From assembly GCF_003952505.1 (NCBI RefSeq), contig NZ_CP034450.1, positions 5,663,001 through 5,727,000 on the forward strand: a stretch of 64,000 nucleotides of DNA, given 5' to 3'. Of this stretch, positions 17,600-35,840 are shown piece after piece. Origin of the DNA: Mesorhizobium sp. M4B.F.Ca.ET.058.02.1.1. GTDB lineage: Bacteria > Pseudomonadota > Alphaproteobacteria > Rhizobiales > Rhizobiaceae. Each line of letters opens with the position of its first letter. Position 1 is the first letter of the stretch. A model generated the notes under the pieces. That model was not told the DNA's origin. It worked only from the letters and a program-made list of their open reading frames with translations, and searched no databases. A program made the position numbers and the translations under genes.

Positions 17600-17625
17600 T
17601 TTCTCGGCCGGTCAGTCGAGAATTT
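17598..17625. terminator. hairpin across the convergent EamA/Dabb ends
   Basis: AATTTCTCG (17598-17606) pairs with CGAGAATTT (17617-17625), eight of nine positions. Each arm ends in an A/T stretch that gives a short U run in either direction. It overlaps both stop regions and could serve both genes. This is a weak call. Confidence 0.4.
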
Positions 17626-17926
17626 CCAGATCGACCACCATCAGCCCGTCGGTGCCGCCTTCGAGGGCGGCGACCAGCCGGGCGCCGGCACGCTGATGCG
17701 CCTCGTGCACCAGATAGGCGTCGCGGGCGGCGGCGTCGCGGAAGTCGATGGTGAAGCCATGGCTGAAGCCGCGCGCGAACGGTTCCGGACTGACATTGGC
17801 GCTGAACTGGACCTTGTCCATCCCTTCGATCGCCCAGCGCAAGGCTTCCAGATCGGCATGGATCGCCGCGCGTTCGGAGGCGTCGACGTCGTGGCGGAAT
17901 CTGACAAAGACGCAGTGCCGGATCAT
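17612..17926 (-). CDS. Dabb-family (stress-responsive A/B barrel) protein
   Basis: 104-residue ferredoxin-like alpha/beta-barrel protein. The opening IRHCVFVRFRHDVD and the later HGFTIDFRDAAARDAYLVHEAH are the typical Dabb pattern, with a conserved histidine in the last segment. Family members include stress proteins and small cyclases or isomerases acting on polyketide-like or sugar-derived substrates. The ATG at 17926 gives the standard N terminus. It is the last gene of the LacI-linked run and starts 10 bases after the GMC oxidoreductase stop, so an accessory catabolic role is plausible but unproven. Confidence 0.82.
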   Translation of the reverse strand: MIRHCVFVRFRHDVDASERAAIHADLEALRWAIEGMDKVQFSANVSPEPFARGFSHGFTIDFRDAAARDAYLVHEAHQRAGARLVAALEGGTDGLMVVDLEILD

Positions 17927-17936
17927 GGCTCTCTCC

Positions 17937-19564
17937 TCAAGCGGCGCGGTTGCCGGAGAAAACGGCCGGCGGCAGAGGTTCGCGGCCAAGGATCAGGTCG
18001 GCGCCCTTTTCGCCGACCATGATGGTCGGCGCATTGGTGTTGGAGGAGGGAACGCGCGGCATCACCGAGGCGTCGCAGATGCGCAAGCCCTCGATGCCGC
18101 GCAGTCTCAGATCCGGCGTCACCACGGCCATTTCGTCATGCCCCATGCGGCAGGTGCCGACCGGATGATGGTCGGTCTTGGAACTGCGGCAGGCGTAGTC
18201 GAACAGGTCGCCGTCGCTCTGCAGGGCAGGGCCCGGAAGCACCTCGCGCAGCACGTAGGGGGCAAGCGCCTTCTGGCGCATGATCTCGCGCGCCAGCCGC
18301 AGCCCTTTGATCGACATGTCGCGATCGTAGGGATCGGACCAATAGTTCGGATCGATCAGCGGATGGTCGGCCGGGTCGGCGCTCTTCAACCGCACCGTGC
18401 CGCGCGAGCGCGGGCGCAGGAAGGCGGAATTCAAGGTGAGGCCCGGATTCTTCAGCTTCTCGACACCGGCCTCGATGCCGGAGCCGAGGCCGAGATGGAA
18501 CTGGATGTCGGGCGAAGCGGCGGTCGGGTCGGCGTACCAGAAGCCGCCGGTCTCGAACAGGCTGGAGGCCACCGGCCCCTTCTTCAGCAGCAGATATTGC
18601 AGGCCGGCCCACATCGTGCGGTGCAGCTTGGCATAGTTGTCATAGGTGTGGTCGCCGGTGCATTCGGCGATGACGAACAGGTCGAGATGGTCCTGCATGT
18701 TGGAGCCAACGCCGGGCAGGTCATGGATAGGCGTCACGCCGACCGACTTCAGATGATCGGCCGGTCCGATGCCCGACTGCATGAGAAGCTTGGGCGAGCC
18801 GATGGCGCCGGAGGAGACGACCACCTCGCGCTCGGCGCGCAGGATCGCAGGCTGACCGCCCGGTTTGTCGACGACCTCGACACCAACGGCGCGGCCCTTC
18901 TCGACGACGATGCGGGTGACCAGCACGTCTGTCCTGACGCTCAGGTTCCTGCGGGCGCGGATCGGCTTCAGATAGGCGACCGATGCGGACGAGCGCCGCG
19001 CATCCTTCTGGGTCAGCTGGTAGTAGCCGACGCCCTCCTGGCTGGCGCCATTGAAGTCCGGGTTGAAGGGGATGCCCATCTCCTGGCCGGCGCGGAAATA
19101 GGCCTCGCAGATCGGCAGCGGCGAGATCGGGTTGGAGACGCCGAGGGCCCCTGGTCGCCATGGAAGTCGTTGGCGTAGCGCTGGTTGTTCTCGGCGCGCT
19201 TGAAATAGGGCAGCACGTCGCGATAGGCCCATCCAGCGAGGCCCTCTTCCTTCTCCCACGCGTCGTAGTCGCGGGCATTGCCGCGCGTGTAGATCTGGGC
19301 GTTGATCGAGGAGCCGCCGCCGACCACCTTGGCCTGCGTGTACCAGAAGACGCGGTCCTTCATGTGCTTCTGCGGCACGGTCGACCAGCCCCAGGAGGCG
19401 ATGCCCTTGGTCATCTTGGCGAAGCCGGCCGGCATGTGGATCAGCGGATGCCAGTCCTTGCCGCCGGCTTCCAGCAGCAGCACCGAATTCGAGGGATCCT
19501 CGCTGAGCCGGTTGGCGAGAACGCAGCCGGCGGGACCGGCCCCAACGATGATGTAATCGGTCAT
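17937..19564 (-). pseudogene. GMC-family flavin oxidoreductase with one-base frameshift
   Basis: Choline-dehydrogenase-like gene. The first 140 or so codons (from ATG 19564) encode the FAD-binding GAGPAGCVLANRLSED and the VVGGGSSINAQIYTRGNARD signature. The remaining roughly 400 codons are in another frame and encode SSGAIGSPKLLMQSGIGP and HPVGTCRMG with the C-terminal CDASVMPRVPSSNTNAP. The break is at 19145-19151 in a GGGCCCC run; adding one base there joins the frames without loss and gives about 542 residues, the normal length. It may be a real recent inactivation or a homopolymer sequencing error. It belongs to the operon after the SDR gene. Confidence 0.85.
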
Positions 19565-19576
19565 TGTCTCATCCGT

Positions 19577-20338
19577 TCAGAGCCGCGGTATGGAGAGCGC
19601 ACCGTCGACATTGATGATCGAGCCGGTCGAAAAGCCGAACTTGCCGCTGGCAAGCGCGGCCACCACGGCGCCGATATCCGATGCCTCGCCCCAGCGTCTG
19701 GCTGGCACCAGACCGCCTTCGATCAGCGCCTCATATTTGGCGGCAACGCCTGATGTCATGTCGGTGCGGATGATGCCAGGCCGCACCTCGAACACGCTGA
19801 TCCCTTCGGCAGCGAGTCGCAGCGCCAGGGTTTTCACCCACATCGACAGGCCGGCTTTCGAGACGCAGTAGTCGGCGCGTTCCGGCGAGGCCGCTTCGGC
19901 GCTGACGGAAGTGATTGTGACGATCGATTTCGGGTGCTCGCCGAGTGTGCCAAGCATGGCCTTGGCGACGGCCTGGCTGAGGAACACCGTACCGCGCAGA
20001 TTGATGCCGAGGGCGCGATCGAAGTTCTCCGGTTTCAGGTCCAGCAGATCACCGCGCACGACGGCGCCGACGCCGGCGTTGTTGACCAGGCAATCGATGC
20101 GGCCGAAGGCGCTCTTCGCGGTTTTGATCAACGCCGCGTGGCCCGCGAGACCGGCGATATCACAGCTTGCGTAGGCGAACTTCGAACCGCGCGCGGTGAT
20201 ATTCTTGGCAAGGCCATCGGCAGGCTTGTCGGCCAAGTCGGCGACGAGGATGTCGAAGCCGGCATCGGCCAATGCCTCGGCGCAGGCCAGTCCGATGCCC
20301 CGCGCGCCGCCCGTGATGATGGCCGCCGGGCGGGTCAT
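19577..20338 (-). CDS. short-chain dehydrogenase/reductase
   Basis: 253-residue classical SDR. The Rossmann motif is TGGARGIG (9-16); NNAG is at 86-89 and the catalytic S144, Y157 and K161 (YCVSK) are present. An acidic residue after the second strand (VADLAD) favours NAD+. The ATG at 20338 overlaps the TGA of the preceding GMC gene as ATGA. The open frame extends far upstream through that gene, but nothing supports a longer protein. A likely role is oxidation of a sugar or polyol hydroxyl within the LacI-linked pathway. Confidence 0.88.
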   Translation of the reverse strand: MTRPAAIITGGARGIGLACAEALADAGFDILVADLADKPADGLAKNITARGSKFAYASCDIAGLAGHAALIKTAKSAFGRIDCLVNNAGVGAVVRGDLLDLKPENFDRALGINLRGTVFLSQAVAKAMLGTLGEHPKSIVTITSVSAEAASPERADYCVSKAGLSMWVKTLALRLAAEGISVFEVRPGIIRTDMTSGVAAKYEALIEGGLVPARRWGEASDIGAVVAALASGKFGFSTGSIINVDGALSIPRL

Positions 20339-21837
20339 GCGGCAAGCTCCGTCTTGCGGATGTGCTCGGCCACGCGCAGCGCCTGCGCCGCGATCGACAG
20401 CGCCGGGTTGACCGCGGCCGAGGTCGGCAGGAAGCCGCCATCGACGACGAACAGGTTCTGGTGGTCGTAAGCGCGGCAGAAGGGGTCGAGCGGCGAGGTT
20501 GCTGGGTCGTTGCCCATCTTCACCGTGCCGCACTGGTGCGAGGGCGTGCGCTTGTCGAAGGGACGCGACAGCACGATCGGATAGCCGCAGGCGCGGAAAT
20601 TCTCGCGCATCACCCTGGTCAGGCCTTCCAGCGACTGCATGTTGGAGCGCCGCCACTGCATGACGATGTCCTTGCCGTCGACCATGATGCGGCTCTCGGG
20701 GTCGGGCAGGTCCTCGCACATCAGATACCAGTCGACGGCATGGCCGGCCATGAAGTCGAGCGCGAATTTCGGCACCGTCTTCACATTGGCCCTCAGCATG
20801 TTGCCGTCGATCTTGCCGAGCAGTTGCACATTGCCGAGCGGTTTGCCACCCCTGCCGTCCGACAGGTAGTAGTCGTTGAGAATCAGAGTCTTCTGGTAGA
20901 CGGCGTCGTTGCGGCGGCGCGGATCGATCGCCAGCATGGCGCTCGAATTGTGGTTCATGAAGTTGCGGCCGACCTGGTCGGAACTGTTGGCAAGGCCCTT
21001 GCCCTTCGCGGAGGGCGAGCGCAGCAGAATGACGGCGGAATTGACCGCTCCGGCCGAAAGAATGACCAGCTTCGGCGACAGCTTCTTTTGCGAGCCGCTC
21101 TGGGTGTAGTGGATGGTGGCGATCGACTTGCCGTCCGGCGCTGCCTCCAGATAGTCGACATGGGCGCCGGTCTCGAGACGGATGTTCTGGTCCGCAAGGG
21201 CCGCCGCCAGCGGTCCGGTCTGGGCATCGACCTTGCCCTGGCCGGTGTTGGGGAAGGCGTCCCACCCCGTCCTGCCGTCCTTCAGCCAGGCGTCGATGTC
21301 GACGCCGAGCGGCAGCGACGCCGGATGCAGGCCGAGTCCCTTCAACTCGGCACGGGCGCGCGCGATGGGCGCCTCGTCGGCGACCGGCTTGAAGGCATAG
21401 GGGATCGAATGGAACGGCTCGGTCGGGTCTTCACCCAGCGTCCCACGCACGCGAAAGAGCTGCTCGGCCTCCGAATACCACGGTTCGAACTCGTCATAGG
21501 AGAAGGGCCATGCCGGCGAGACGCCGCCGAAATGCTCCATGGCGGAAAAGTCCTCCTTGCGGTAGCGGATCAGCACCGCGCCATAGAATTTCGAATTGCC
21601 GCCAACATAGTAGTAGTTGCCTGGGTTGAAGGCGGCGCCGCCCGCTTCGCGCCACATCTCCTTCGGCCGGTAGTGGCCATTGACGAAAATGGCGCGGGTG
21701 TCGCGCGTCTCGGGCGTCGCAGGCAGAGGTTCGCCGCGCTCCAGGATCAGGATCGAGGCGCCACTGCCAGCCAGACCGGAGGCGATCGTGGCGCCGCCGA
21801 TGCCGGAGCCGATGATGACGATATCCGGGTTTGCCAT
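20335..21837 (-). CDS. GMC-family oxidoreductase (sugar dehydrogenase-like)
   Basis: 500-residue flavoprotein. The FAD-binding VIIGSGIGGATIASGL sits at the N terminus. The C-terminal half holds SHQCGTVKMG and the closing FVVDGGFLPTSAAVNPALS with the conserved active-site His/Asn region. It resembles the large subunits of gluconate, sorbitol and fructose dehydrogenases more than choline dehydrogenase. There is no Tat or Sec signal, so it appears cytoplasmic. It lies between the ABC ATPase gene and the SDR, which it overlaps by 4 bases. The intergenic gap on its upstream side carries a palindromic repeat. Confidence 0.87.
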   Translation of the reverse strand: MANPDIVIIGSGIGGATIASGLAGSGASILILERGEPLPATPETRDTRAIFVNGHYRPKEMWREAGGAAFNPGNYYYVGGNSKFYGAVLIRYRKEDFSAMEHFGGVSPAWPFSYDEFEPWYSEAEQLFRVRGTLGEDPTEPFHSIPYAFKPVADEAPIARARAELKGLGLHPASLPLGVDIDAWLKDGRTGWDAFPNTGQGKVDAQTGPLAAALADQNIRLETGAHVDYLEAAPDGKSIATIHYTQSGSQKKLSPKLVILSAGAVNSAVILLRSPSAKGKGLANSSDQVGRNFMNHNSSAMLAIDPRRRNDAVYQKTLILNDYYLSDGRGGKPLGNVQLLGKIDGNMLRANVKTVPKFALDFMAGHAVDWYLMCEDLPDPESRIMVDGKDIVMQWRRSNMQSLEGLTRVMRENFRACGYPIVLSRPFDKRTPSHQCGTVKMGNDPATSPLDPFCRAYDHQNLFVVDGGFLPTSAAVNPALSIAAQALRVAEHIRKTELAA

Positions 21838-21858
21838 GGCCTAAAGATCTTCGTTTGG

Positions 21859-21906
21859 ATGCATGTCGTTGGCCCAAAACCGGAGCCACTTTTGGGCGAC
21901 ATGCAT
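21859..21906. repeat. palindromic intergenic repeat, family A, copy 1
   Basis: Imperfect palindrome bounded by ATGCATGTCG and CGACATGCAT with CCCAAAA/TTTTGGG inside. It begins 21 bases upstream of the GMC gene and its last base touches the ABC ATPase stop codon. A degenerate copy lies at 56474-56518. This element type is abundant between genes in Mesorhizobium-like genomes. Confidence 0.8.
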
Positions 21907-23021
21907 CAGAGAATGCGCTTCTCGGTCGCCGGGTCGAAGAACACAGCCTTGGTCAGGTTGAAGGCGAGCGGCGTCACGGTGCCAGGCTGGATCTTGGCAT
22001 CGGCGCGCAACCGTGCCACCACCGCCTTGCCGCCGAGATTGGTGACGGCGAAGGTGTCGGAGCCGGCCGGCTCGATCACCTCGATATGGCAGTCCGCTGT
22101 GGCGATGTTGGAGGCATTGCGTTCGGCGCCTTCCGGATCGGTCAGCGACTCCGGGCGGACGCCGAAGATGACTGGCTTGCCCTGGAAGGCCGAAAGGCCC
22201 GTCGGCGCGTTGCTGAGCGGCAGCAAGATCGGCTCGCGCCCGTCGCGCTGCAGCACCACGGACAACCCACTGCCATTGCCGCCGATCGTCGCCGGCACCA
22301 GGTTCATCGCCGGCGAGCCCATGAAATCGGCGACGAAGATGTTGGTCGGGTTGTTGTAGATTTCGGCCGGCGTGCCGAACTGCTGCACCTCTCCGTCGCG
22401 CATCACGGCGATCTTGGTGGCCAGCGTCATCGCCTCGATCTGGTCATGGGTGACGTAGACGATCGTCGTCCCGGTGTTGGCGTGCAGGCGCTTGATCTCG
22501 ATACGCATGTCGACGCGCAGCTTGGCGTCGAGGTTGGAGAGCGGCTCGTCGAACAGGAACAGTTTCGGGTCGCGCACCAGCGCCCGGCCCATGGCGACGC
22601 GCTGGCGCTGGCCGCCGGAGAGCTGGCTTGGCTTGCGCTGCAGGAGGTGGCCGATCTGCAGCACCTTGGCCACCTTGTCGATTGCCTTCTGGCGCTCGTC
22701 GGCCGGCACGCCGCGCATCTCCATGCCGAAAGAGATGTTTCCGGCCACCGTCATGTTCGGATAGAGCGCGTAGCTCTGGAACACCATGGCGATGTCGCGC
22801 TTGGACGGATGGAGATCGTTGATAGCGCGTCCATCGACGCGGATCTCGCCCTCGGTGATGTTCTCCAGCCCGGCGATGGTGTTGAGCAGCGTGGACTTGC
22901 CGCAGCCGGACGGACCGACCAGCACGAGGAAGCCGCCCTTCTCCAACTCGACATTGATGCCCTTCAGGATCTCGACATTCCCGAAGCGCTTCTTCAGCCC
23001 ATCAATTTCAAGAAAAGCCAT
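21906..23021 (-). CDS. sugar ABC transporter ATP-binding protein (UgpC/MalK-like)
   Basis: 371 residues. It has Walker A VGPSGCGKSTLLN, signature LSGGQRQRVAMGRALVRDP, Walker B FLFDEPLSNLDA, switch YVTHDQIEAMTLATKI and a C-terminal regulatory (TOBE) domain with GVRPESL, all typical of the MalK/UgpC/MsmX group that powers CUT1 carbohydrate importers. The ATG at 23021 is preferred to one 21 bases upstream because it gives the normal start (MAFLEIDGL). It follows the permease pair in the operon. Confidence 0.9.
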   Translation of the reverse strand: MAFLEIDGLKKRFGNVEILKGINVELEKGGFLVLVGPSGCGKSTLLNTIAGLENITEGEIRVDGRAINDLHPSKRDIAMVFQSYALYPNMTVAGNISFGMEMRGVPADERQKAIDKVAKVLQIGHLLQRKPSQLSGGQRQRVAMGRALVRDPKLFLFDEPLSNLDAKLRVDMRIEIKRLHANTGTTIVYVTHDQIEAMTLATKIAVMRDGEVQQFGTPAEIYNNPTNIFVADFMGSPAMNLVPATIGGNGSGLSVVLQRDGREPILLPLSNAPTGLSAFQGKPVIFGVRPESLTDPEGAERNASNIATADCHIEVIEPAGSDTFAVTNLGGKAVVARLRADAKIQPGTVTPLAFNLTKAVFFDPATEKRIL

Positions 23022-23025
23022 CAGA

Positions 23026-23970
23026 TTATCCTTTGACCGCACCGGCCATCAGCCCGCGCACAAAATAGCGGCCGGCGACGACATAGACGAGAAGGGTGGG
23101 AAGGGCGGCGATCATCGCCGCCGCCATGTTGACGTTGTACTCGACCACGCCGGTCGAGGTGTTGACGACATTGTTCAGCGCCACCGTCATCGGCATGACG
23201 TCGCCGGTGCCGGCATAGGCGGAAGCGAACAGGAAGTCGTTCCAGATGTTGGTGAACTGGTAGATCACGGTGACGACGAAGATCGGCATCGAGTTCGGCA
23301 GCATGATGCGGCGGAAGATCTGGAAGAAGGAGGCGCCGTCGACCTGCGCCGCCTTGATCAGTTCGGTCGGAAAGGCCTCGTAGTAATTGCGGAAGAACAG
23401 CGTGGTGAAGCCGAGGCCGTAGACGACATGGACGAAGACCAGGTTCACCGTCGAATTGCCGAGGCCGAAATTGAACCCGGTCGCGTTCTGCAATGTGACG
23501 CCGAAGCGGCCGATGCTGCCGAGGATCGTCGCCATCGGCAGCAGCACCGACTGGAACGGGATGAAGCAGGCGAACAGCATCATCGCGAAGACCAGCGTGT
23601 GGCCGCGGAAGCGCCATTTGGTCAGCACGTAGCCGTTGAGGGCGCCGAGCAGCGTCGAGATCAGCACTGCCGGAACCACCATCTTGATGGAGTTCCAGAA
23701 GTAGCCCTTGATGCCGGCGCAGGTGAGACCGACGCAGGCCTCGCCCCAGGCTTTCCACCACGGGTCGAACGTCGGCGCTTGCGGCAGTGCCAGCATGTTG
23801 CCGTTCTGAATCTCGTCCATGGTCTTGAACGAGGTGACAAGCATGACGAAGAGCGGCATCAGGTAGAAGATCGCGAAGAGCGCGAGCAGCCCGTAGATGA
23901 CGATCCGGTTGATCGTCCTGGCGCTGATGCCGCCGGTGGCCGGGCGGGTCGGTGAGGCAACGGCGCTCAT
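23026..23970 (-). CDS. sugar ABC transporter permease (MalG-like)
   Basis: 314-residue CUT1 permease with six membrane helices and the EAA loop in the form EAFPTELIKAAQVDGASFFQ. A periplasmic loop of about 50 residues after the first helix (FKTMDEIQNGN onward) is usual for MalG-type subunits. It overlaps the upstream permease gene by 4 bases and stops 4 bases before the ATPase start, so the three genes are tightly coupled. Confidence 0.9.
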   Translation of the reverse strand: MSAVASPTRPATGGISARTINRIVIYGLLALFAIFYLMPLFVMLVTSFKTMDEIQNGNMLALPQAPTFDPWWKAWGEACVGLTCAGIKGYFWNSIKMVVPAVLISTLLGALNGYVLTKWRFRGHTLVFAMMLFACFIPFQSVLLPMATILGSIGRFGVTLQNATGFNFGLGNSTVNLVFVHVVYGLGFTTLFFRNYYEAFPTELIKAAQVDGASFFQIFRRIMLPNSMPIFVVTVIYQFTNIWNDFLFASAYAGTGDVMPMTVALNNVVNTSTGVVEYNVNMAAAMIAALPTLLVYVVAGRYFVRGLMAGAVKG

Positions 23971-24926
23971 CGCGGCTTCTCCCTGAGCTCGGAATAGAGA
24001 TAAGGCACAATGATCGCGGTCAGCGTCATCAGCATGATCACGGCGCTCGCCGAGCCGACGGCCATCTCGTTGCGCTTGAAGGTGAACTCGTACATGAAGT
24101 TGGACGGCAGCCAGGCCGAACCGCCCGGTCCGCCGCTGGTCAGCGCCACCACCAGGTCATAGGACTTGATGGCGAGGTGGGCGAGCACGATGAAGGCCGA
24201 CAGGAACACTGGCCGCAGCAGCGGAATGACGATGCGGCGGTAGAGCTGGAAGGTGGTGGCGCCGTCGATCTGCGCCGCCTTCATGATCTCACCGTCGATG
24301 CCGCGCAAGCCGGCCAGGAACATCGCCATGATGAAGCCGGAGGCCTGCCAGACTCCAGCGATGACCACGGTGTAGATGACGAAATCCTTGTTCTTGATCC
24401 AGTCGAAATGGAAGCTCGTCCAGCCCCACTGGTGCAGCGTCTGCTCGAGGCCGAGGCCGGGATCGAGGAACCATTTCCAGGCGACGCCGGTGACGATGAA
24501 GGAGAGCGCCATCGGGTAGAGGTAGATCGGCCTGAGCATGCCTTCGCCGCGGATCTTCTGGTCGAGCAGGATGGCCAGGAACAGGCCGAGCGCCAGGCAG
24601 ATGAAGATATAGAGGAAGCCGAAAATGCCCATGTTGGTGATCGAGGTGTACCAGCTCGAGGGCGGATCGCTCTCGAAGGTCCAGCGCCACAGCCGCTGAT
24701 AGGCGCGAGCACCGGTGATGGCATAGGACGGGAAGGTCTTGGAGTTGGTAAAGGACAGATAGATCGTCCACAGGATGAAGCCATAGACGAAGACGATCGT
24801 CGCAGCGAAGCTCGGCGCCAGCACGATCTTCGGCAACAGATCCTGCAGTCGCGAGCGAACGGACGCTCCTGGGCGGGCGTCGTGCTCCGGTGTCAGCTTC
24901 GCGGTGGTTTCGGCTACTGTGCTCAT
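23967..24926 (-). CDS. sugar ABC transporter permease (MalF-like)
   Basis: 319-residue CUT1 permease with six predicted helices. The EAA-type loop is visible as GIDGEIMKAAQIDGATTFQ near residue 220. A polar stretch of about 40 residues precedes the first helix. The ATG at 24926 is used; an in-frame extension upstream would read through the hairpin before it. It pairs with the product of 23026-23970. Confidence 0.9.
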   Translation of the reverse strand: MSTVAETTAKLTPEHDARPGASVRSRLQDLLPKIVLAPSFAATIVFVYGFILWTIYLSFTNSKTFPSYAITGARAYQRLWRWTFESDPPSSWYTSITNMGIFGFLYIFICLALGLFLAILLDQKIRGEGMLRPIYLYPMALSFIVTGVAWKWFLDPGLGLEQTLHQWGWTSFHFDWIKNKDFVIYTVVIAGVWQASGFIMAMFLAGLRGIDGEIMKAAQIDGATTFQLYRRIVIPLLRPVFLSAFIVLAHLAIKSYDLVVALTSGGPGGSAWLPSNFMYEFTFKRNEMAVGSASAVIMLMTLTAIIVPYLYSELREKPR

Positions 24927-25008
24927 CGGCTCATCCAGTACCGGTTCGTCGGGGGCCGGCCGGCGCAAAGCGCCAGCCCGGGCAATCCCGGACCTTGCCT
25001 CGTTAGAA

Positions 25009-25032
25009 ACCTCCCCGCCAGGGCGGGGAGGT
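25009..25032 (-). other. stem-loop between the binding-protein and permease genes
   Basis: ACCTCCCCGCC (25009-25019) pairs perfectly with GGCGGGGAGGT (25022-25032), an 11-bp GC-rich stem 15 bases after the binding-protein stop on the minus strand. Only TTTCT follows. As in the other ABC operon here it is best read as a stabilising or attenuating stem that favours binding-protein mRNA. Confidence 0.65.
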
Positions 25033-25047
25033 CGTTTCAAGCATCGC

Positions 25048-26301
25048 TTACTTGGCGTCGTCGATCGCCTTGACCAGCTCGGTCACGGCCTCGTCCGAGG
25101 TCTTGATCTGGCCATGGACGAACTTCGAGACGACGTCCTTGTAGGCGTTGGCGACGGCGGGCGGGGCGCCATAGCCCTGGGCCAGCGAACCGAACAGCGT
25201 GCCGCCCTCGTTGGCCGCCTTCAGGTCGGCGATACCCTTCTTGCCGCAAGCGTCGAAGTCGGTGTCAGGCACGTCGGTGCGGGCCGGAACCGAACCCTTG
25301 ACGACGTTGAAGGCCGACTGGAAGCTCTTCGACAGCGTGGCGGTGGCAAGCGCTGCCTGGGCGGCCTTACGGTCGTCCGGAACGTTGAACATGCCGAACA
25401 TGTCGGAGTTGTAGATCACCGAGCCGTCGGTGCCCGGGAAGCGATAGCAGAGGAAGTCGGTGCCCGGGGTCTTCTTGGCGGCGTGGAACTCGCCCTTGGC
25501 CCAGTCGCCCATGACCTGAACCAGCGCGTCACCCTTGATGACCATGGCGGTAGCGAGGTTCCAGTCGCGGCCCGAGAAGTTCGGGTCGACATAGGTGACC
25601 AGCTTGGCGAGGTTGTCGAACGACTTCTTCATCGTGTCGGACTTCAGCGATTCCTCGTCGAGGTCGTTGAAGGCTTTCTTGTAGAACTCCGGCCCGCCAG
25701 TCGACAGCACGACGGAGTCGAACATCGTAGCTTCCTGCCAGTTCTGACCGCCGAGCGCGAGCGGGATGACGCCCGCGGCCTTGGCCTTGTCGAGCAAGGC
25801 GACGAAGTCATCGAAGGTCTTCGGCTCGGCGCCGCCGATCTTGTCCATCACCGCCTTGTTGATCCACAGCCAGTTGACCGAGTGGACGTTGACCGGAGCC
25901 GCGACCCACTTGCCGTCGTAGACCGAGAATTTCTGCAGGGCTGCCGGAACCGACTTGTCCCAGCCTTCCTTCTTGGCGGTCTCGGTCAGATCGCCCATGA
26001 CGCCGGCAGCGGCATAGTCGAGCACGGTATAGCCGAGCATCTGCGAGGCGGTCGGATAGTTGCCGGCCGCGACCATGGCTTTCAGCGCCGTCATGGCGGC
26101 GTCGCCGCCGCCGCCGGCCACCGGCACGTCCTTCCAGGCATAGCCTTCCTTGGACAGATCCTCCTTGAGGACGTTCAGAGCAGCCGCTTCGCCGCCCGAC
26201 GTCCACCAATGCAGCATCTGCACTTCCTTGACGTCGGCGGCATGCGCCGAAAACGCAAAGGTCGACGCAAGAGCCGTTCCGATAAGCAGTTTGCGCAACA
26301 T
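25048..26301 (-). CDS. sugar ABC transporter substrate-binding protein
   Basis: 417 residues with a clear Sec signal peptide (1-21, ending AHA) and a mature start [17 protein letters not shown], the usual opening of family 1 carbohydrate-binding proteins (glucose, glycoside or polyol type). The ATG at 26301 is preferred because it puts the signal peptide at the very N terminus. It is the first transport gene after the aldehyde dehydrogenase in the LacI-linked run. The sugar ligand is not predictable here. Confidence 0.9.
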
Positions 26302-26361
26302 GTGGTTCCTCCCTTGTTGCAATGCACACAACCGACGGATGTCCGCCGGGGTCTTCCCAAC

Positions 26362-27873
26362 TCAGCCGACCCACCAACCGGTGCGCTGGCCGCGATGAAA
26401 CTGGATTGTCTTTTCCTCTGTATAGTCCTCGACAGCGCGCTTGCCGAGTTCACGTCCGAGACCGGACTGTTTGTAGCCCCCGAACGGCAGCTCGGGGTAA
26501 CCTTCCATGAACGTGTTCACCCAAACAGTCCCCGAACGCACACTCCGCGCCACCGACATGCAGGTGTCGATGCTGGCGCTCCACACACCCGCCGACAAAC
26601 CATAGGGCGTGTTGTTGGCGATGTGCAACGCCCTTTCAATCGAGTCAAAGGTTAGCGCGGAGAGCACGGGCCCGAACACTTCCTCGCGTGCGATCGCCAT
26701 GTCCTCGGTCACGCCGCGAATGATGGTCGGATCGAGATATTGGCCGGCATTTGAGGCGAGCTGGCTGCCGCCCGCATAAACAGAGCCGCCGTCTCCGGCC
26801 GCCGCCGTTACATAGCCGGCTACCTTGGTCAGATGGTCGGTGGAAATCATTGCGCCGACCTTGGTGCGGTCGTCGAGCGGATCGCCAACCGTCACCCTGG
26901 CGGTCAACGCCTTGACGGTCGCGAGGAAGTCGTCGGCGATCGCCTCATGTACGATCAGCCGGCTGCCGGCGTTGCAGCATTCGCCGGCGTTAAAGAAGCC
27001 GCCGAACACCGCGGCATCCGCCGCCGCTTCCAGATCGGCGTCGGGGAAGACGATCTGGCCGTTCTTGCCACCGAGCTCCATCGACACCTTCTTCAGGGAG
27101 TTCGAGGCGGCAGCCATCGTCATCTTGCCGACGCGGGTGGAGCCCGTGAAAGACACCATCTCGACCAGCGGATGGTTGACCATCGGCGCGCCGACATCGC
27201 TGCCCAGGCCGGCCAGGATGTTGACGGCACCGGCGGGGAGGCCTGCTTCGAGCAGGATGTCGCCGAGCACGAACGTCGAGGCCGAGGTCATCTCGCTTGG
27301 CTTCACCACCGCCGTGCAGCCGGCGGCGAGCGCGAAGGGCAGTTTCTGGCTGACGATCAGGAAGGGGAAATTCCACGGCGTGATGATCGAGACGACACCG
27401 ATCGGCTCGCGCAGCACGACGCCGAGCATCGCGTCGCCGAGATTGGCATAGCTCTCGCCGTGCAGCGTGCGGGCGAGCGAGGCGGCATAGCGCCAGATGT
27501 CGACGGCGCCGCCGATCTCGCCGCGCGCCTGGGCGATCGGCTTGCCGGATTCCAGCGCGTCGAGCCTGGCGATCTCTTCCAGCCGGACCTCGATCAGGTC
27601 GGCCGCCTTGAGCAGGATGGCGGCGCGCTCGGATGCCTTCATGCGCGGCCAGGGGCCGGCCTCGAAGGCCCTGTGCGCGGCGGTCACCGCGGTCTCGACT
27701 TCCGCTTCGCCGGCCTGAGCATAGTGCGAGACGGTAAAGCCGTGGCCGGGGCTTCTGCGCTCCAGCACGCGGCCGTCGCGGGCCCCGACATGCTTGCCGT
27801 CGATCAGCAGCTTGTAGGTCTTCGGCGCCGCGGACGCCTCGGCCGGCATGGAAATCTTGAGGGGTGCGTTCAT
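26362..27873 (-). CDS. NAD-dependent aldehyde dehydrogenase
   Basis: 503-residue aldehyde dehydrogenase with TPWNFPF (165-171), cofactor lysine in VVKPSE (189-194), SFTGSTRVGK (241-250), the base E266 (MELGGKNG) and nucleophile C300 (NAGECCNAG). The closing ELPFGGYKQSG motif is present. It resembles betaine-aldehyde and gamma-aminobutyraldehyde-type enzymes, but the context of a sugar ABC importer, CoA-transferase and hydratase suggests it oxidises a sugar- or polyol-derived aldehyde. It is separated by 60 bases from the binding-protein gene. Confidence 0.9.
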   Translation of the reverse strand: MNAPLKISMPAEASAAPKTYKLLIDGKHVGARDGRVLERRSPGHGFTVSHYAQAGEAEVETAVTAAHRAFEAGPWPRMKASERAAILLKAADLIEVRLEEIARLDALESGKPIAQARGEIGGAVDIWRYAASLARTLHGESYANLGDAMLGVVLREPIGVVSIITPWNFPFLIVSQKLPFALAAGCTAVVKPSEMTSASTFVLGDILLEAGLPAGAVNILAGLGSDVGAPMVNHPLVEMVSFTGSTRVGKMTMAAASNSLKKVSMELGGKNGQIVFPDADLEAAADAAVFGGFFNAGECCNAGSRLIVHEAIADDFLATVKALTARVTVGDPLDDRTKVGAMISTDHLTKVAGYVTAAAGDGGSVYAGGSQLASNAGQYLDPTIIRGVTEDMAIAREEVFGPVLSALTFDSIERALHIANNTPYGLSAGVWSASIDTCMSVARSVRSGTVWVNTFMEGYPELPFGGYKQSGLGRELGKRAVEDYTEEKTIQFHRGQRTGWWVG

Positions 27874-27882
27874 CGGATTCCT

Positions 27883-28651
27883 CTAGGACCTCGAAAAGGC
27901 CGGCTTCTGCTTGGCCTTGAAGGCATCGACGCCGGCCTTGAGGTCGCCGGTCAGCGCGATGAAGCCGCTGGCCAGCGCTTCCGTGGCTGCAGCACTCTCC
28001 TCGCCTTCGGCGACCGCGATCATCAGCTTTGCAGCTTCGATCGCCAGCGGTCCGCGCTCGGCGATCTTTTCTCCCCATATCTTGGCGTCGGCGAGCGCTT
28101 TGCCGGTCTCGACGACGCGGTCGACAACGCCGAGCGCAAGCGCTTCGCTCGCCAGCAGGACTTCGCCTCCGATGGCCATGCGCCGCACCGTCTGCGCGCC
28201 GAAGCGGCGCACGGCGCGCTGCGTGCCAGACCAACCGGGAACGACGCCGATCGAGGTTTCGGGAAAGCCGAGCTTCACCTGTGTCTCCGCGACGCGGAAA
28301 TCGCAGGCCACCGCCAGCTCCAGCCCGCCGCCCAGCGCATGGCCGGACAGCACGGCGATGGTCGGCTGCCTGAGCCGCGCCAGCCGGTCGAAGACACGGT
28401 GGCCATAGCGGACCCATTGCACCTGGAAATCGGCGGCGCTCAATTGTGCCCAGGCCTCGACGTCGCCGCCGGCGCAAAAGCCCTTGCCTTCGCCACGGAC
28501 GAGCACGACACGCACGCCCTCAGCCAGCTCCGCCTCGTCAAGCGCCGCTTCGAGCGCGCGCAGCATCGGAATGTCCAGCGCGTTGAACTTTTCCGGCCGG
28601 CGCAGCGTGACGAAGCCGATGGCGCCGTCCTGTTCGAAGCTGACGAGACGT

Positions 28652-28659
<8 letters not shown>
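27883..28659 (-). CDS. enoyl-CoA hydratase/isomerase family protein
   Basis: 258-residue crotonase-fold protein. The oxyanion-hole segments GFCAGGD (60-66) and HALGGGLEL (107-115) are intact. Both glutamates used by hydratases are present (E114 and E134, the latter in PETSIGVVPGWSGTQR). The ATG at 28659 overlaps the end of the CoA-transferase gene by 8 bases. The product would hydrate or isomerise an acyl-CoA formed by the transferase. The acyl chain is unknown. Confidence 0.9.
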
Positions 28660-32303
<3,644 letters not shown>

Positions 32304-32336
32304 CCAGATCGCTCCTCCCCAACTGGTCAAATCTAT

Positions 32337-32372
32337 TGGAACGTTCTAATCATGAGGCGCGAGGAGAGTCAA
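32337..32372 (-). promoter_or_regulatory. lacI-operon promoter with operator copy O1
   Basis: Reading the minus strand, TTGACT (32367-32372) and TAGAAC (32343-32348) are spaced by 18 bases. The imperfect palindrome TGGAACGTTCTA (32337-32348) covers the -10 element. It differs by one base from the perfect copy 164 bases away, giving a classical autorepression layout. Confidence 0.6.
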
Positions 32373-32491
32373 TCCGGATTTCTGAAAAACGAAAAAATCG
32401 ACAATTCGACCGTGTCAACACCTTATGCGACAAGGGAAATCGTGTTGCGATGCAGCATTTCGGCGTGCCAGAGCAAAAATCATAAAGCTTC

Positions 32492-32520
32492 TTGATTTAT
32501 TGGAACGTTCCATCTATAGG
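32492..32520 (+). promoter_or_regulatory. DUF993 promoter with operator copy O2 in the spacer
   Basis: TTGATT (32492-32497) and TATAGG (32515-32520) are exactly 17 bases apart. The perfect 12-bp palindrome TGGAACGTTCCA (32501-32512) fills the spacer, where a bound LacI-type repressor would block polymerase. The transcript would begin just before the GGGAGA ribosome-binding site of the gene at 32542. Confidence 0.7.
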
Positions 32521-32541
32521 CGCTGCCAAAGGGAGAGTTTC

Positions 32542-33696
32542 ATGGACATCACCTTGCCCGAGGAGGGTGGCCGCCGCGCCAGCTACCGGCTTGTCGGTCG
32601 GCCCGCGCAGCCGGTTGCCGGGGCGCGGTTTTCGCGCGTCGCCTATGCCGCCGCCCATGTCGTCGCCGACCCCCTCGCCATGACCGACCCGTGGTCGCTG
32701 CCCGTCGTCGACTGGGACAGGACGATGGCGTTCCGCCATCACCTGTGGCGGCTCGGCTTCCGCATCGCCGAGGCGATGGACACCTCGCAGCGCGGCATGG
32801 GTTTCGACTGGGCAAACGCAAAGGAATTGATCCGCCGCTCGATTGCAGAGGCGCGGACCGTCGAAGGGGCCGATCTCGCTTCGGGGGCCGGCACCGATCA
32901 TCTGGCGCCTTCCGCGGCGAGCACGCTCGACGATGTGATTGCCGCCTATGAGGAGCAGTTCGGCTTCATCGAGGGGCAGGGCGGCAAGGCGATCATGATG
33001 GCGAGCCGCGCGCTGGCGGCGGTCGCCAGGGGCCCGGACGACTATTCCAGCATCTACGACCGGATCCTCTCGCAGGCGTCAGGCAAAGTGATCCTGCACT
33101 GGCTGGGCGACATGTTCGATCCGGCCCTGAAGGGATACTGGGGCAGTGGCGATTTCGAGACGGCGCTCGATACGGTCGTGGCCATCATCGAGCGGCATGC
33201 CGGCAAGGTCGAAGGCATAAAAATATCGCTGCTCGATGCCAGCAAGGAGGTGGCGCTGCGGGATCGGTTGCCGGAAGGCGTCGTCATGTTCACCGGCGAC
33301 GACTTCAACTACCCCGAGTTGATCGCCGGCGACGGCAGGAGGCACTCGCATGCGCTGCTCGGCATTTTCGACGCCATCGCGCCGGTCGCCAACGCGGCGC
33401 TGGCCAGGCTCACCGATGGCGACCGCGCCGGCTATGACGCACTGATGGCGCCGACGGTGCCGCTGTCGCGCAAGATCTTCGAGGCGCCGACCGAATATTA
33501 CAAGGCCGGCATCGTCTTCATGGCATGGCTGAATGGCCATCAGGAGCATTTCGCGATGGTCGGCGGCATGCAGTCGGCGCGCGGCATCCTGCATTATGCC
33601 GATGTGTTCCGGCTGGCCGACCAGGCGGGATTGCTGGCCGATCCCGAGCTTGCGGTGGCCCGAATGAAGAGCCTCTGCGCCGTCGCAGGCGTTTGA
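32542..33696 (+). CDS. DUF993 family protein (dihydrodipicolinate synthase-like aldolase)
   Basis: 384 residues matching the DUF993 group, related to the DapA/N-acetylneuraminate-lyase TIM barrels. Visible segments include MTDPWSLPVVDWDRTMAFR, GMGFDWANAKELI, VILHWLGDMFDPALKGYW and the lysine-bearing VEGIKISLLD, the best candidate for the Schiff-base residue. The ATG at 32542 is preceded by GGGAGA; the open frame upstream runs through the promoter and is rejected. Expression from a LacI operator shared with the sugar-type cluster suggests it cleaves or dehydrates a keto-sugar acid of that pathway, which is inference. Confidence 0.8.
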   Translation: MDITLPEEGGRRASYRLVGRPAQPVAGARFSRVAYAAAHVVADPLAMTDPWSLPVVDWDRTMAFRHHLWRLGFRIAEAMDTSQRGMGFDWANAKELIRRSIAEARTVEGADLASGAGTDHLAPSAASTLDDVIAAYEEQFGFIEGQGGKAIMMASRALAAVARGPDDYSSIYDRILSQASGKVILHWLGDMFDPALKGYWGSGDFETALDTVVAIIERHAGKVEGIKISLLDASKEVALRDRLPEGVVMFTGDDFNYPELIAGDGRRHSHALLGIFDAIAPVANAALARLTDGDRAGYDALMAPTVPLSRKIFEAPTEYYKAGIVFMAWLNGHQEHFAMVGGMQSARGILHYADVFRLADQAGLLADPELAVARMKSLCAVAGV

Positions 33697-33795: not shown

Positions 33796-34881
33796 ATGAC
33801 GGGCAAAGTGGCGCTCATCACCGGCGTGACCGGGCAGGACGGAGCCTATCTGGCGCAATTGCTGCTTGAGAAGGGTTATGTCGTCCACGGCGTCAAACGC
33901 CGCTCGTCCTCATCAAACACCGGGCGTATCGAAGACCTCTATGTCGATCCGCATGAGCGCGACGCACGCCTCTTCCTGCACTATGGCGATCTGACCGACG
34001 CGGCCAACCTGATCCGCCTCGTGCAGGAGACGCGACCCGCCGAAATCTACAATCTCGGCGCCCAGAGCCATGTCCAGGTGAGTTTCGAGAACCCGGAATA
34101 TACGGGCAATGCCAATGCGCTGGGGACGCTGCGGCTGCTGGAGGCGATCCGTATCCTCGGCCTCGAAAGGTCGGTGCGCTTCTATCAGGCGTCGACCTCG
34201 GAACTCTACGGCAAGGCGTCGGTGGCGCCGCAGAACGAGACGACGCCCTTCCGTCCGCGCTCGCCCTATGCGGCGGCCAAGCTCTACGCCTACTGGACGA
34301 CGGTCAACTACCGCGAGGCCTATGGCATGTTCGCGGCCAACGGCATCCTGTTTAACCACGAGAGTCCATGCCGTGGCGAGACCTTCGTCACCCGCAAGAT
34401 CACGCGCGCGGTGGCCGCGATCCATCACGGGCGGCAAGATGTGCTCTATCTCGGCAATATCGACGCCAGACGCGACTGGGGCCATGCGCGCGACTATGTC
34501 GAGGGCATGTGGCGCATCCTCCAGCACGACGAGGCCGACGATTTCGTGCTGGCGACGGGCGAGACGCATTCGGTGCGCGAATTCGTCGAACTGGCCTTCG
34601 CCGAGACGGGGCGCACCGTGCTCTGGCAAGGCCATGACGCAGACGAAGTGGGTATCGACGCCGTTTCGGGCGCGGTCCTGGTGCGCATCGACCCACGCTA
34701 TTTCCGGCCAACCGAGGTCGACCTCCTGGTCGGCGACGCGTCCAAGGCGAGAGCCGTGCTGGGCTGGTCGCACAGGACCGGCTTCAGGGATCTGGTGGCG
34801 GAAATGGTGCAGGCCGACCTCGCGGATTTTGACGATGCAGCCATGGCAGGGCGGACGTTCCGCCCGGGGGTGGGCCGATGA
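33796..34881 (+). CDS. gmd: GDP-mannose 4,6-dehydratase
   Basis: 361 residues of the extended SDR family. It converts GDP-mannose to GDP-4-keto-6-deoxymannose. NADP-binding [11 protein letters not shown] (10-20) with [26 protein letters not shown] (133-139) and the catalytic Y158/K162 (YAAAK) are all present, and length is normal. It overlaps fcl by 4 bases, so the pair makes GDP-fucose. In rhizobia this sugar goes to lipopolysaccharide, exopolysaccharide or fucosylated Nod factors; no glycosyltransferase is nearby to decide. Confidence 0.95.
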
Positions 34882-35840
34882 CTTTCGATTTGAAGGGCAA
34901 ACGGGTCTTCGTTGCCGGGCACCGCGGCATGGTCGGCTCGGCTGTCGCGCGCCGACTGGCAGGCGAGGATTGCGAAATCCTGACGGTCGCGCGCAGCGAG
35001 CTCGACCTTCTCGACCAGGCCGGCGTGCGGCGCTGGATGGCCGAGCACAGGCCGGACGCAGTGGTAATGGCGGCCGCAAAGGTCGGCGGCATCCTGGCCA
35101 ACGACACGCTTCCGGTCGACTTTCTCCACGAGAACCTGGTGGTGCAGACCAATGTCATGGAGAGCGCCTTCCGCTGCGAGGTGCGGAAGCTCCTGTTCCT
35201 CGGCTCGTCCTGCATTTATCCGAAGCTCGCGCCGCAGCCGATCCCCGAAGACGCGCTGTTGACCGGTCCGCTCGAGCCCACCAATGAATGGTACGCGGTC
35301 GCCAAGATCGCCGGGCTGAAACTCTGCCAGGCCTACCGGCGTCAGTATGGCGTGGACTACATCTCCGCCATGCCGACCAACCTCTATGGTCCGGGCGACA
35401 ATTTCGACCTCACCAGCAGCCATGTCGTGCCGGCCCTCATGCGCAAGGCGCATGAGGTCAAGCGTGCCGGCGGGAAGCAGCTGGAGGTCTGGGGATCGGG
35501 CAGGCCAATGCGCGAGTTCCTGCATGTCGACGACGCCGCCGATGCGCTTGTCTGGCTGCTGAAGAACTATTCCGGCGACGGCCACGTCAATGTCGGCTCG
35601 GGAGAAGACATCAGCATTGGCAAGCTTGCCCGCACGATCCTGTCCGTGGTCGGCGTCGAAGCCACGGTAACCTTCGACGCGACAAAGCCGGACGGCACGC
35701 CGCGCAAGCTGCTGGACGTGTCGCGCCTGTTTGCAACGGGCTGGCGGCCGCGCTGCTCGCTGCGCGATGGATTGGAACAGACTTATGGGTGGTTTCTGCG
35801 GCATGTCGAGACAGGCGACGTTCGCCTCGGCGCGGGCTGA
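34878..35840 (+). CDS. fcl: GDP-L-fucose synthase
   Basis: 320 residues; an epimerase-reductase that turns GDP-4-keto-6-deoxymannose into GDP-L-fucose with NADPH. The N-terminal [14 protein letters not shown], the SSCIYP segment (111-116) and the catalytic Y139/K143 ([11 protein letters not shown]) match the family. It is translationally coupled to gmd. No transcript end is obvious in the following 290 bases. Confidence 0.95.

Follow-up and report, generated by a model that had tools for sequence, protein, structure and literature searches.

According to the accessible text of a review (PMC12441222), α-1,4-glucans yield 1,5-anhydrofructose, which rhizobia (Sinorhizobium morelense) reduce to 1,5-anhydromannitol; the next published step is a hydroxylation at C1, by a P450-like, not yet identified enzyme, that gives mannose, and the review takes this pathway from Kuhn, Yu and Giffhorn (2006). 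The same text describes, from Ma et al., an anaerobic route for 1,5-anhydroglucitol and anhydromannitol 6-phosphates that uses glycyl radical enzymes. Here, we analysed a stretch of 64,000 nucleotides (the window; positions 5,663,001 to 5,727,000 of contig NZ_CP034450.1) from Mesorhizobium sp. M4B.F.Ca.ET.058.02.1.1, whose genome is a single contig of 6.46 Mb, and we describe a 14-gene cluster at 17612-33696 of the window that joins a predicted 1,5-anhydro-D-fructose reductase to a sugar importer, a LacI-family regulator and enzymes of coenzyme A (CoA) thioester chemistry. Tentatively, and with somewhat less than even confidence, we read this cluster as a regulon for the catabolism of 1,5-anhydro sugars, repressed by its LacI protein, with a proposed CoA route.

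The cluster resembles the S. morelense pathway, as given in the accessible review text (PMC12441222), in its apparently orthologous first enzyme and in its rhizobial, aerobic setting. It differs in having no P450 gene and in containing two GMC oxidoreductases, an aldehyde dehydrogenase, a class I CoA-transferase, an enoyl-CoA hydratase (crotonase) family protein and a DUF993 protein. The anaerobic route of the same source concerns the same substrate class and relies on a phosphotransferase system (PTS) and on radical chemistry, whereas a Pfam scan of the 14 genes found no PTS component or radical enzyme among them. The cluster is a candidate to supply the remaining steps of anhydrofructose and anhydrohexitol catabolism without the published P450 step, and it offers a concrete gene set for aerobic anhydro-sugar breakdown, with candidates for the steps that the accessible review text calls unidentified. 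If the proposed route is true, it would be a rare instance of a sugar ring being handled as a CoA thioester, a chemistry uncommon for sugars, with CoA activation taking the place of a uronate lyase; DUF993, for its part, gains a regulon and a predicted reaction.

A predicted 1,5-anhydro-D-fructose reductase in the cluster

The Gfo/Idh/MocA protein encoded on the minus strand at 30250-31266 matched the PDB entries 2glx (465 bits, residues 4-331) and 4koa (461 bits), the next family reaching 110 bits, and it carries the motifs EKP at position 94 and DITVH at position 177. We take 2glx to be the 1,5-anhydro-D-fructose reductase of S. morelense, and the gene is, on this sequence comparison, an orthologue of that enzyme; through this predicted orthology, the cluster touches a described rhizobial pathway. 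An inositol, xylose or levoglucosan dehydrogenase was considered and rejected, since the protein scores far below the NCBIfam cut-offs for these enzymes (146 bits against a cut-off of 355 for the IolG model) and far more weakly than against 2glx. The myo-inositol pathway was rejected as well, because the Pfam scan, which covered the 14 genes in 15 pieces, found no IolB, IolC, IolD or IolE.

A preceding sequence-only reading had proposed that the cluster encodes an undescribed route for a cyclitol, a glycoside or a sugar-like natural product. No named pathway with this gene set was found in the open-licence PMC literature among the matches listed, which agrees with the first part of that claim; it does not hold for the dehydrogenase, which appears to be the orthologue of a characterised enzyme. 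Anhydro sugars become the leading candidates for the substrate. The regulon would therefore be anchored by a 1,5-anhydrofructose reductase with a CoA-dependent core, rather than being an anonymous sugar route. Among the literature matches listed, the only paper naming the reductase was a structure paper (PMC5969746).

Gene organization and putative operators

A single run of 13 genes occupies the minus strand at 17612-32330, and the divergent DUF993 gene on the plus strand (32542-33696) makes it a 14-gene unit. In the direction of transcription, the run encodes the LacI-family regulator (31263-32330, likely start at 32303; LacI and Peripla_BP_3 domains), the reductase, the CoA-transferase, the enoyl-CoA hydratase, the aldehyde dehydrogenase, the sugar-binding protein, two permeases, the ATPase, a second GMC oxidoreductase (GMC2), an SDR dehydrogenase, a first GMC oxidoreductase (GMC1) and a Dabb-domain protein. 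The gaps between consecutive genes range from -53 to +30 bp, several junctions being 4-bp overlaps, with the exception of 68 bp before GMC2. The importer is of the CUT1 type: it consists of an SBP_bac_1 binding protein (25048-26331), two BPD_transp_1 permeases (permease 1 at 23967-25040, permease 2 at 23026-23970) and a MalK/UgpC-type ATPase with ABC_tran and OB_MalK domains (21906-23042). Each of the genes named in the sequence-only reading was recovered by the Pfam scan at about the expected position, and all the families listed there are present; GMC1 is not a single open frame here (see below).

To look for operators, a LacI-type palindrome pattern derived from the stretch between lacI and the DUF993 gene was searched genome-wide. 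Only two exact matches exist in the 6.46-Mb genome, TTGGAACGTTCTA before the lacI operon (32336-32348) and TTGGAACGTTCCA before the DUF993 gene (32500-32512). When one mismatch was allowed, six forward and four reverse rows were obtained, corresponding to six places, as against one and three rows for a control pattern. These putative operators are CG-centred palindromes at both regulated promoters, as in a local sugar regulon of the LacI type. Because the same palindrome stands at both promoters, the DUF993 gene is tied to the lacI operon. The small gaps and the common putative operator bear out the earlier proposal of a LacI-controlled regulon that links the uptake and dehydrogenation of a sugar to CoA-thioester enzymes. 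They speak against a set of unrelated transcription units, which that proposal had named as one of the findings that would undo it.

The palindrome is also found in relatives of the locus: of 82 LacI/DUF993 stretches, 79 contain one or more sites that depart from it by no more than two mismatches, and 56 contain at least two. In the three stretches without a site, both genes are collinear and separated by 16-26 bp. Across the 80 loci described below, 184 such sites occur in 1,674 kb; most of them therefore lie in the LacI/DUF993 stretch. The four other places of the host genome with a one-mismatch copy (G000:C1 near 536658, 1070534, 1360313 and 1665944) are possibly further regulon members or chance occurrences.

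We presume that smc04396 is the Sinorhizobium meliloti gene for the binding protein of this cluster. In the accessible part of PMC4960864, smc04396 is reported to be induced by dextrin, which fits the anhydro-sugar reading, albeit indirectly. The tag SMc04401 is given as a regulator, without a pathway, in the accessible part of PMC4560400, and it was not found in that of a study of LacI regulons (PMC4052901).

Conservation of the cluster

Related loci were defined as the best 80 of at least 578 CoA-transferase relatives obtained by scanning genome contigs; all belong to Mesorhizobium or near kin, and the best CoA-transferase match (98% identity) comes from Mesorhizobium sp. M4B.F.Ca.ET.203.01.1.1. 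The regulator and the hydratase accompany the CoA-transferase in all 80 loci, DUF993 in 77 (one contig being too short) and the reductase in 69. Of these loci, 76 are long enough to show the whole order from LacI to GMC1, and 74 of the 76 preserve it; 72 were recognized by the automatic check, which an extra ATPase-like match upstream disturbed in L104 and L106. The two exceptions are L102, whose stretch contains neither the SDR nor GMC1, and L109, which has no aldehyde dehydrogenase. As the order is conserved and the putative operator is common to both promoters, chance is an unlikely cause of this gene arrangement.

The arrangement extends beyond the genus. S. meliloti Ak57 (L111) has the same order on a 3.7-Mb record labelled pSymB, with the reductase gene annotated as 1,5-anhydro-D-fructose reductase and a glycerate kinase after GMC1; a glycerate kinase is also present in L123, L115 and L151, and beside the cluster in G361. 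A similar order occurs in Paraburkholderia sp. PGU19, where the DUF993 gene follows GMC1 on the same strand and no GMC2 match was found in the locus. In Roseibium, a record edge leaves the part comprising reductase, CoA-transferase, hydratase, aldehyde dehydrogenase, importer and GMC2. The reductase accompanies the core in five genomes outside the genus (G158, G167, G185, G197 and G361). In a sample of 385 genomes of the class (host included), for which the counts are lower bounds because the best few candidates were scored per genome, the reductase is present in at least five (E 1e-60), a CoA-transferase of at least 60% identity in at least eight and DUF993 in at least 35. Within the genus, 99 of 119 genomes (host included) contain both DUF993 and the reductase at 79% identity or more (one as a partial gene), 11 have DUF993 alone, nine have neither and none has the reductase alone; this co-occurrence corresponds to a Fisher P of 1.7e-8, kinship not being corrected for.

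The gene neighbourhood also bears on a different division of labour, in which only the reductase end of the operon serves anhydrofructose, anhydromannitol is converted to mannose by an unlinked P450-like enzyme, and the CoA genes form a separate acid pathway that happens to share the operon. The C1-oxygenation scheme in the accessible text of PMC12441222 is in line with this, as are the P450 genes elsewhere in the genome (none in the unit, the nearest more than 1 Mb away). However, the reductase gene adjoins the CoA-transferase gene from Rhizobiales to Paraburkholderia, and the same palindrome marks both promoters; we consider such a split very unlikely.

Loss of the reductase and selection on the remaining genes

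In 11 of the 80 loci, the reductase gene is gone or reduced to remnants while the rest of the cluster is kept. Stages of this decay, from a 79-residue remnant to full removal, can be followed in L087, L063, L072, L073, L080, L086, L092, L094, L095, L096 and L099; in M. ciceri WSM1271, for instance, residues 1-30 and 288-336 remain. The remnants lie between the LacI and CoA-transferase genes, on four branches of the Mesorhizobium gene tree, and the CoA-transferase tree indicates at least four losses if loss is taken as irreversible, a number that exchange between strains could alter.

In the genomes without the reductase, the median pairwise ratios of nonsynonymous to synonymous substitution rates (dN/dS) of 12 genes or gene parts range from 0.05 to 0.14, as compared with 0.06-0.17 in every fifth genome that keeps it. 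Dabb was left out of this set, and residues 1-138 stood for GMC1. Any sequence that contained a stop or matched less than 90% of the query was dropped, which favours intact copies, so that of the 11 genomes four contributed for DUF993 (its query start being overlong), five for one permease and 8-11 for each remaining gene. Since the reductase is missing from 11 loci while the tested neighbours stay under purifying selection, it is an entry step and not part of the core. The same loss led us to reject the reductase as the committed step. It also weakens an obligatory relay from GMC2 to the reductase; an anhydrofructose-reductase-like gene near a GMC2-like gene still occurs, without the CoA core, on plasmids of Bradyrhizobium (L114) and Arthrobacter (L119).

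The dispensable reductase is one argument for another pyranose or glycoside as the true substrate, processed for example by 3-keto-sugar chemistry, with the reductase salvaging a by-product. GMC2 (20335-21837; PF00732/PF05199) lends itself to this explanation, being similar to sugar-oxidising GMC dehydrogenases: its best PDB matches are glucose dehydrogenase (105 bits) and fructose dehydrogenase (87 bits), and pyranose oxidase matches weakly (36 bits). On the other hand, none of the 14 genes encodes a glycosidase or a lyase, and the reductase gene adjoins the CoA-transferase gene from Rhizobiales to Paraburkholderia, as noted above. Moreover, the binding protein appears to be of the monosaccharide-binding kind, judging from its matches to 4r2b (551 bits), to the ABC sugar-binding component 5dvf (370 bits) and to the glucose-binding protein 2b3b (135 bits). 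Overall, we regard a different pyranose substrate as somewhat unlikely.

A proposed CoA-dependent route

Anhydro sugars are moderately supported as the substrate class; the candidate substrates are 1,5-anhydrofructose and 1,5-anhydromannitol, and possibly 1,5-anhydroglucitol. In favour of the anhydro-sugar reading we count the reductase orthology, the co-occurrence, the common palindromes, the conserved order in S. meliloti with its glycerate kinase neighbour, the retention of the core under purifying selection where the reductase is lost, the closeness of the crotonase to a 3-hydroxyacyl-CoA dehydratase with both Glu preserved, the monosaccharide-type binding protein and the L183 locus described below. 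The substrate range, the order of the steps, the elimination and the DUF993 reaction given below are what we infer. The importer would take up the pyranose, and the reductase, perhaps with GMC2 or the SDR, would interconvert the 2-keto and 2-hydroxy forms, with 1,5-anhydromannitol as the common intermediate. Oxidation at C6 by GMC1 and the aldehyde dehydrogenase (26362-27873; Aldedh, 544 bits, with GECC and MELGGK motifs) would then give a 1,5-anhydro-uronate, which the CoA-transferase would convert to a thioester. Thioester formation would acidify H5 and leave the C4 hydroxyl in the beta position, and for this chemical reason the crotonase could remove water at the C4 hydroxyl by beta-elimination to form an enol ether. 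Hydrolysis of the enol ether would open the ring to a 2-keto-3-deoxy-hexonate, the CoA being passed on by the transferase; from the manno configuration the product would be 2-keto-3-deoxy-D-gluconate, which would account for the reductase forming the manno rather than the gluco epimer. Finally, aldol cleavage by DUF993 would release pyruvate and glyceraldehyde, the latter leaving via glycerate.

Both halves of this chemistry have parallels elsewhere. In the alginate route, an unsaturated manno-uronate opens to a 2-keto-3-deoxy acid, 2-keto-3-deoxy-D-gluconate; the ring opening is like that proposed here, but it depends on polysaccharide lyases and involves no CoA. In carnitine metabolism, the CoA-transferase CaiB feeds the crotonase CaiD, which adds or removes water at C2-C3 while CoA is recycled; CaiB belongs to a different transferase class and the substrate is no sugar acid.

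The CoA-transferase (28652-30253; CoA_trans) is YdiF/FadX-like and aligns with YdiF (2ahu, 376 bits) over residues 4-522; its motif IEQGAVGG contains EQG at position 327, whose Glu is presumably the catalytic Glu of class I CoA-transferases. The crotonase (27883-28686; ECH_1) has 3-hydroxypropionyl-CoA dehydratase (5zai, 174 bits) as its best PDB match. The Glu of GGLELAVACD and that of LGFPETSIG are each aligned with Glu in three alignments, 5zai first, and we take the two to be the catalytic residues.

The DUF993 protein (likely start at 32542 in a frame open from 32425; PF06187, 608 bits) matches the PDB entry 4dnh, an 'Uncharacterized protein', with 510 bits. Among 120 listed of 8000 matches, proteins of this family are named 'dihydrodipicolinate synthase family', 'DUF993' or hypothetical, and no paper on DUF993 was found in the open-licence PMC literature. 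The Lys of GIKISLL is invariant in ten aligned DUF993 proteins. Profile comparison by hhalign with dihydrodipicolinate synthase (DHDPS) gave probabilities of 7% (five DHDPS-family proteins of the host genome) and 27% (34 proteins), and in both of these low-scoring alignments the GIKISLL Lys falls on the DHDPS Lys. The aldolase reading of DUF993, which draws on annotation and motif with no significant profile match, is the weak joint of the route.

Other genomic contexts of the core genes

Comparison with other loci shows the core to be modular. Sixty further DUF993 loci were drawn from the class, from the order and from second copies in the genus. A CoA-transferase of the family lies in the stretch in 13 of them (11 at 53-78% identity, two at 40%) and just outside it in three; one locus has an acyl-CoA dehydrogenase set, five show none of these contexts, and in the remaining 38 DUF993 stands beside a xylose-isomerase-like TIM barrel protein without a CoA-transferase. 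This group of 38 falls within L121-L173 (for example L122, L125, L136 and L153). Of six such loci inspected, four have a Gfo/Idh-domain protein beside DUF993, 20 proteins having been submitted rather than every neighbour; as this combination recalls keto-sugar chemistry, it again favours another pyranose as substrate.

A sister cluster of the CoA type occurs on pSymA of S. meliloti (L117), in Paracoccus (L115) and in Sagittula (L120), and also in L175-L179. Its CoA-transferase is 67-69% identical to ours, and relatives of the crotonase, GMC1, the aldehyde dehydrogenase, the SDR and DUF993 are common to both clusters; a glycerate kinase (L115, L117) or a Dabb protein (L120) accompanies them. 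Unlike the cluster described here, it has a CUT2-type importer, an acyl-CoA dehydrogenase, aldo/keto reductases, a sugar isomerase and, in L115 and L117, electron transfer flavoprotein (ETF), and it contains no match to the anhydrofructose reductase or to GMC2. No paper was found for it in the open-licence PMC literature under six S. meliloti pSymA tags.

The acyl-CoA dehydrogenase of L115, L117 and L120, together with the ETF of L115 and L117, amounts to a beta-oxidation set and raises the possibility that the same anhydro sugar is degraded by a beta-oxidation-like sequence. In it, the uronyl-CoA, which at C4 would already be a 3-hydroxyacyl-CoA, is oxidised by the SDR to a 3-keto thioester that DUF993 cleaves as a carbon-carbon lyase, while the crotonase either handles a side product or serves as a hydrolase. 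The SDR (19577-20338) would suit such a role, as its family (PRK12745; NF009386, 357.5 bits with a cut-off of 250; PDB 4da9, 294 bits) is named 3-ketoacyl-ACP reductase. Nevertheless, the cluster has no thiolase and the crotonase is left unexplained, and DUF993 occurs without a CoA-transferase in the 38 loci mentioned above, so that its substrate is probably no thioester. We judge this sequence of steps unlikely.

A further context is L183 (G345), where relatives of the CoA-transferase (60%) and of the hydratase (42%) occur with a TRAP transporter, an SDR and an enolase-superfamily protein, and where no GMC or aldehyde dehydrogenase match was found in the locus. This arrangement fits a sugar acid as substrate of the CoA-transferase and crotonase. 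We accordingly read the CoA-transferase as probably acting on a sugar acid, with GMC1 and the aldehyde dehydrogenase making the acid where the imported sugar is neutral. The CoA-transferase relatives in G551 and G523 have little gene context. In its boldest form, our proposal would be an aerobic route free of P450 and of phosphate from 1,5-anhydrohexitols to 2-keto-3-deoxy-D-gluconate via the C6 uronyl-CoA, with DUF993 as a new aldolase family and with CoA-transferase, crotonase, SDR and DUF993 as a modular core, common to at least one other cluster type, that opens sugar rings in general; we give this extension low credence.

A number of observations weigh against the anhydro-sugar reading. 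The step that follows anhydromannitol in the accessible review text (PMC12441222) is a P450-like C1 hydroxylation to mannose, and P450 genes exist in the genome with none near the cluster. Since the cluster can do without the reductase, anhydrofructose may not be its natural substrate, and GMC2 is kept where the reductase is lost, contrary to a strict relay between them. Glucose or maltose may be the cause of the dextrin induction. DUF993 is not established as a DHDPS-type aldolase: an unrelated crotonase control profile reached 24% against it (six other controls stayed at or below 1.3%), the two alignments disagree on the DHDPS Tyr, which pairs with the invariant Tyr of GYWG when five DHDPS-family proteins are used and with an invariant His when 34 are used, and the family most often stands beside the TIM barrel protein with no CoA-transferase (38 of the 60 loci). 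No firm role in the pathway can be assigned to the SDR or to the Dabb protein.

GMC1, Dabb and the flanking genes

GMC1 (17937-19564; GMC_oxred_N/C, PF00732/PF05199), a choline-dehydrogenase-like protein that scores below the cut-off of the NCBIfam betA model, is split by a frameshift. Its halves lie in different frames, in open reading frames at 19013-19564 and 17937-19259, and the frame changes near 19145. Both halves could be located in 75 related loci, of which 73 have them in one frame and two in different frames; the split is therefore a sequencing error or a defect or recent loss in the host genome. The Dabb-domain protein (17612-17926; PF07876, 68 bits) starts with MIRHCVF at 17926 in a frame open to 17989, and in other loci, such as L120, L123 and L163, a Dabb protein again accompanies some of these enzymes. 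DUF993 is followed, at positions 33796-35840 of the window, by the gene of a GDP-mannose 4,6-dehydratase and by another gene that resembles those of nucleotide-sugar epimerases. The dehydratase was rejected as a member of the unit, and the end of the unit was placed at DUF993, because it adjoins the cluster in 16 of the 80 related loci, some contigs ending early.

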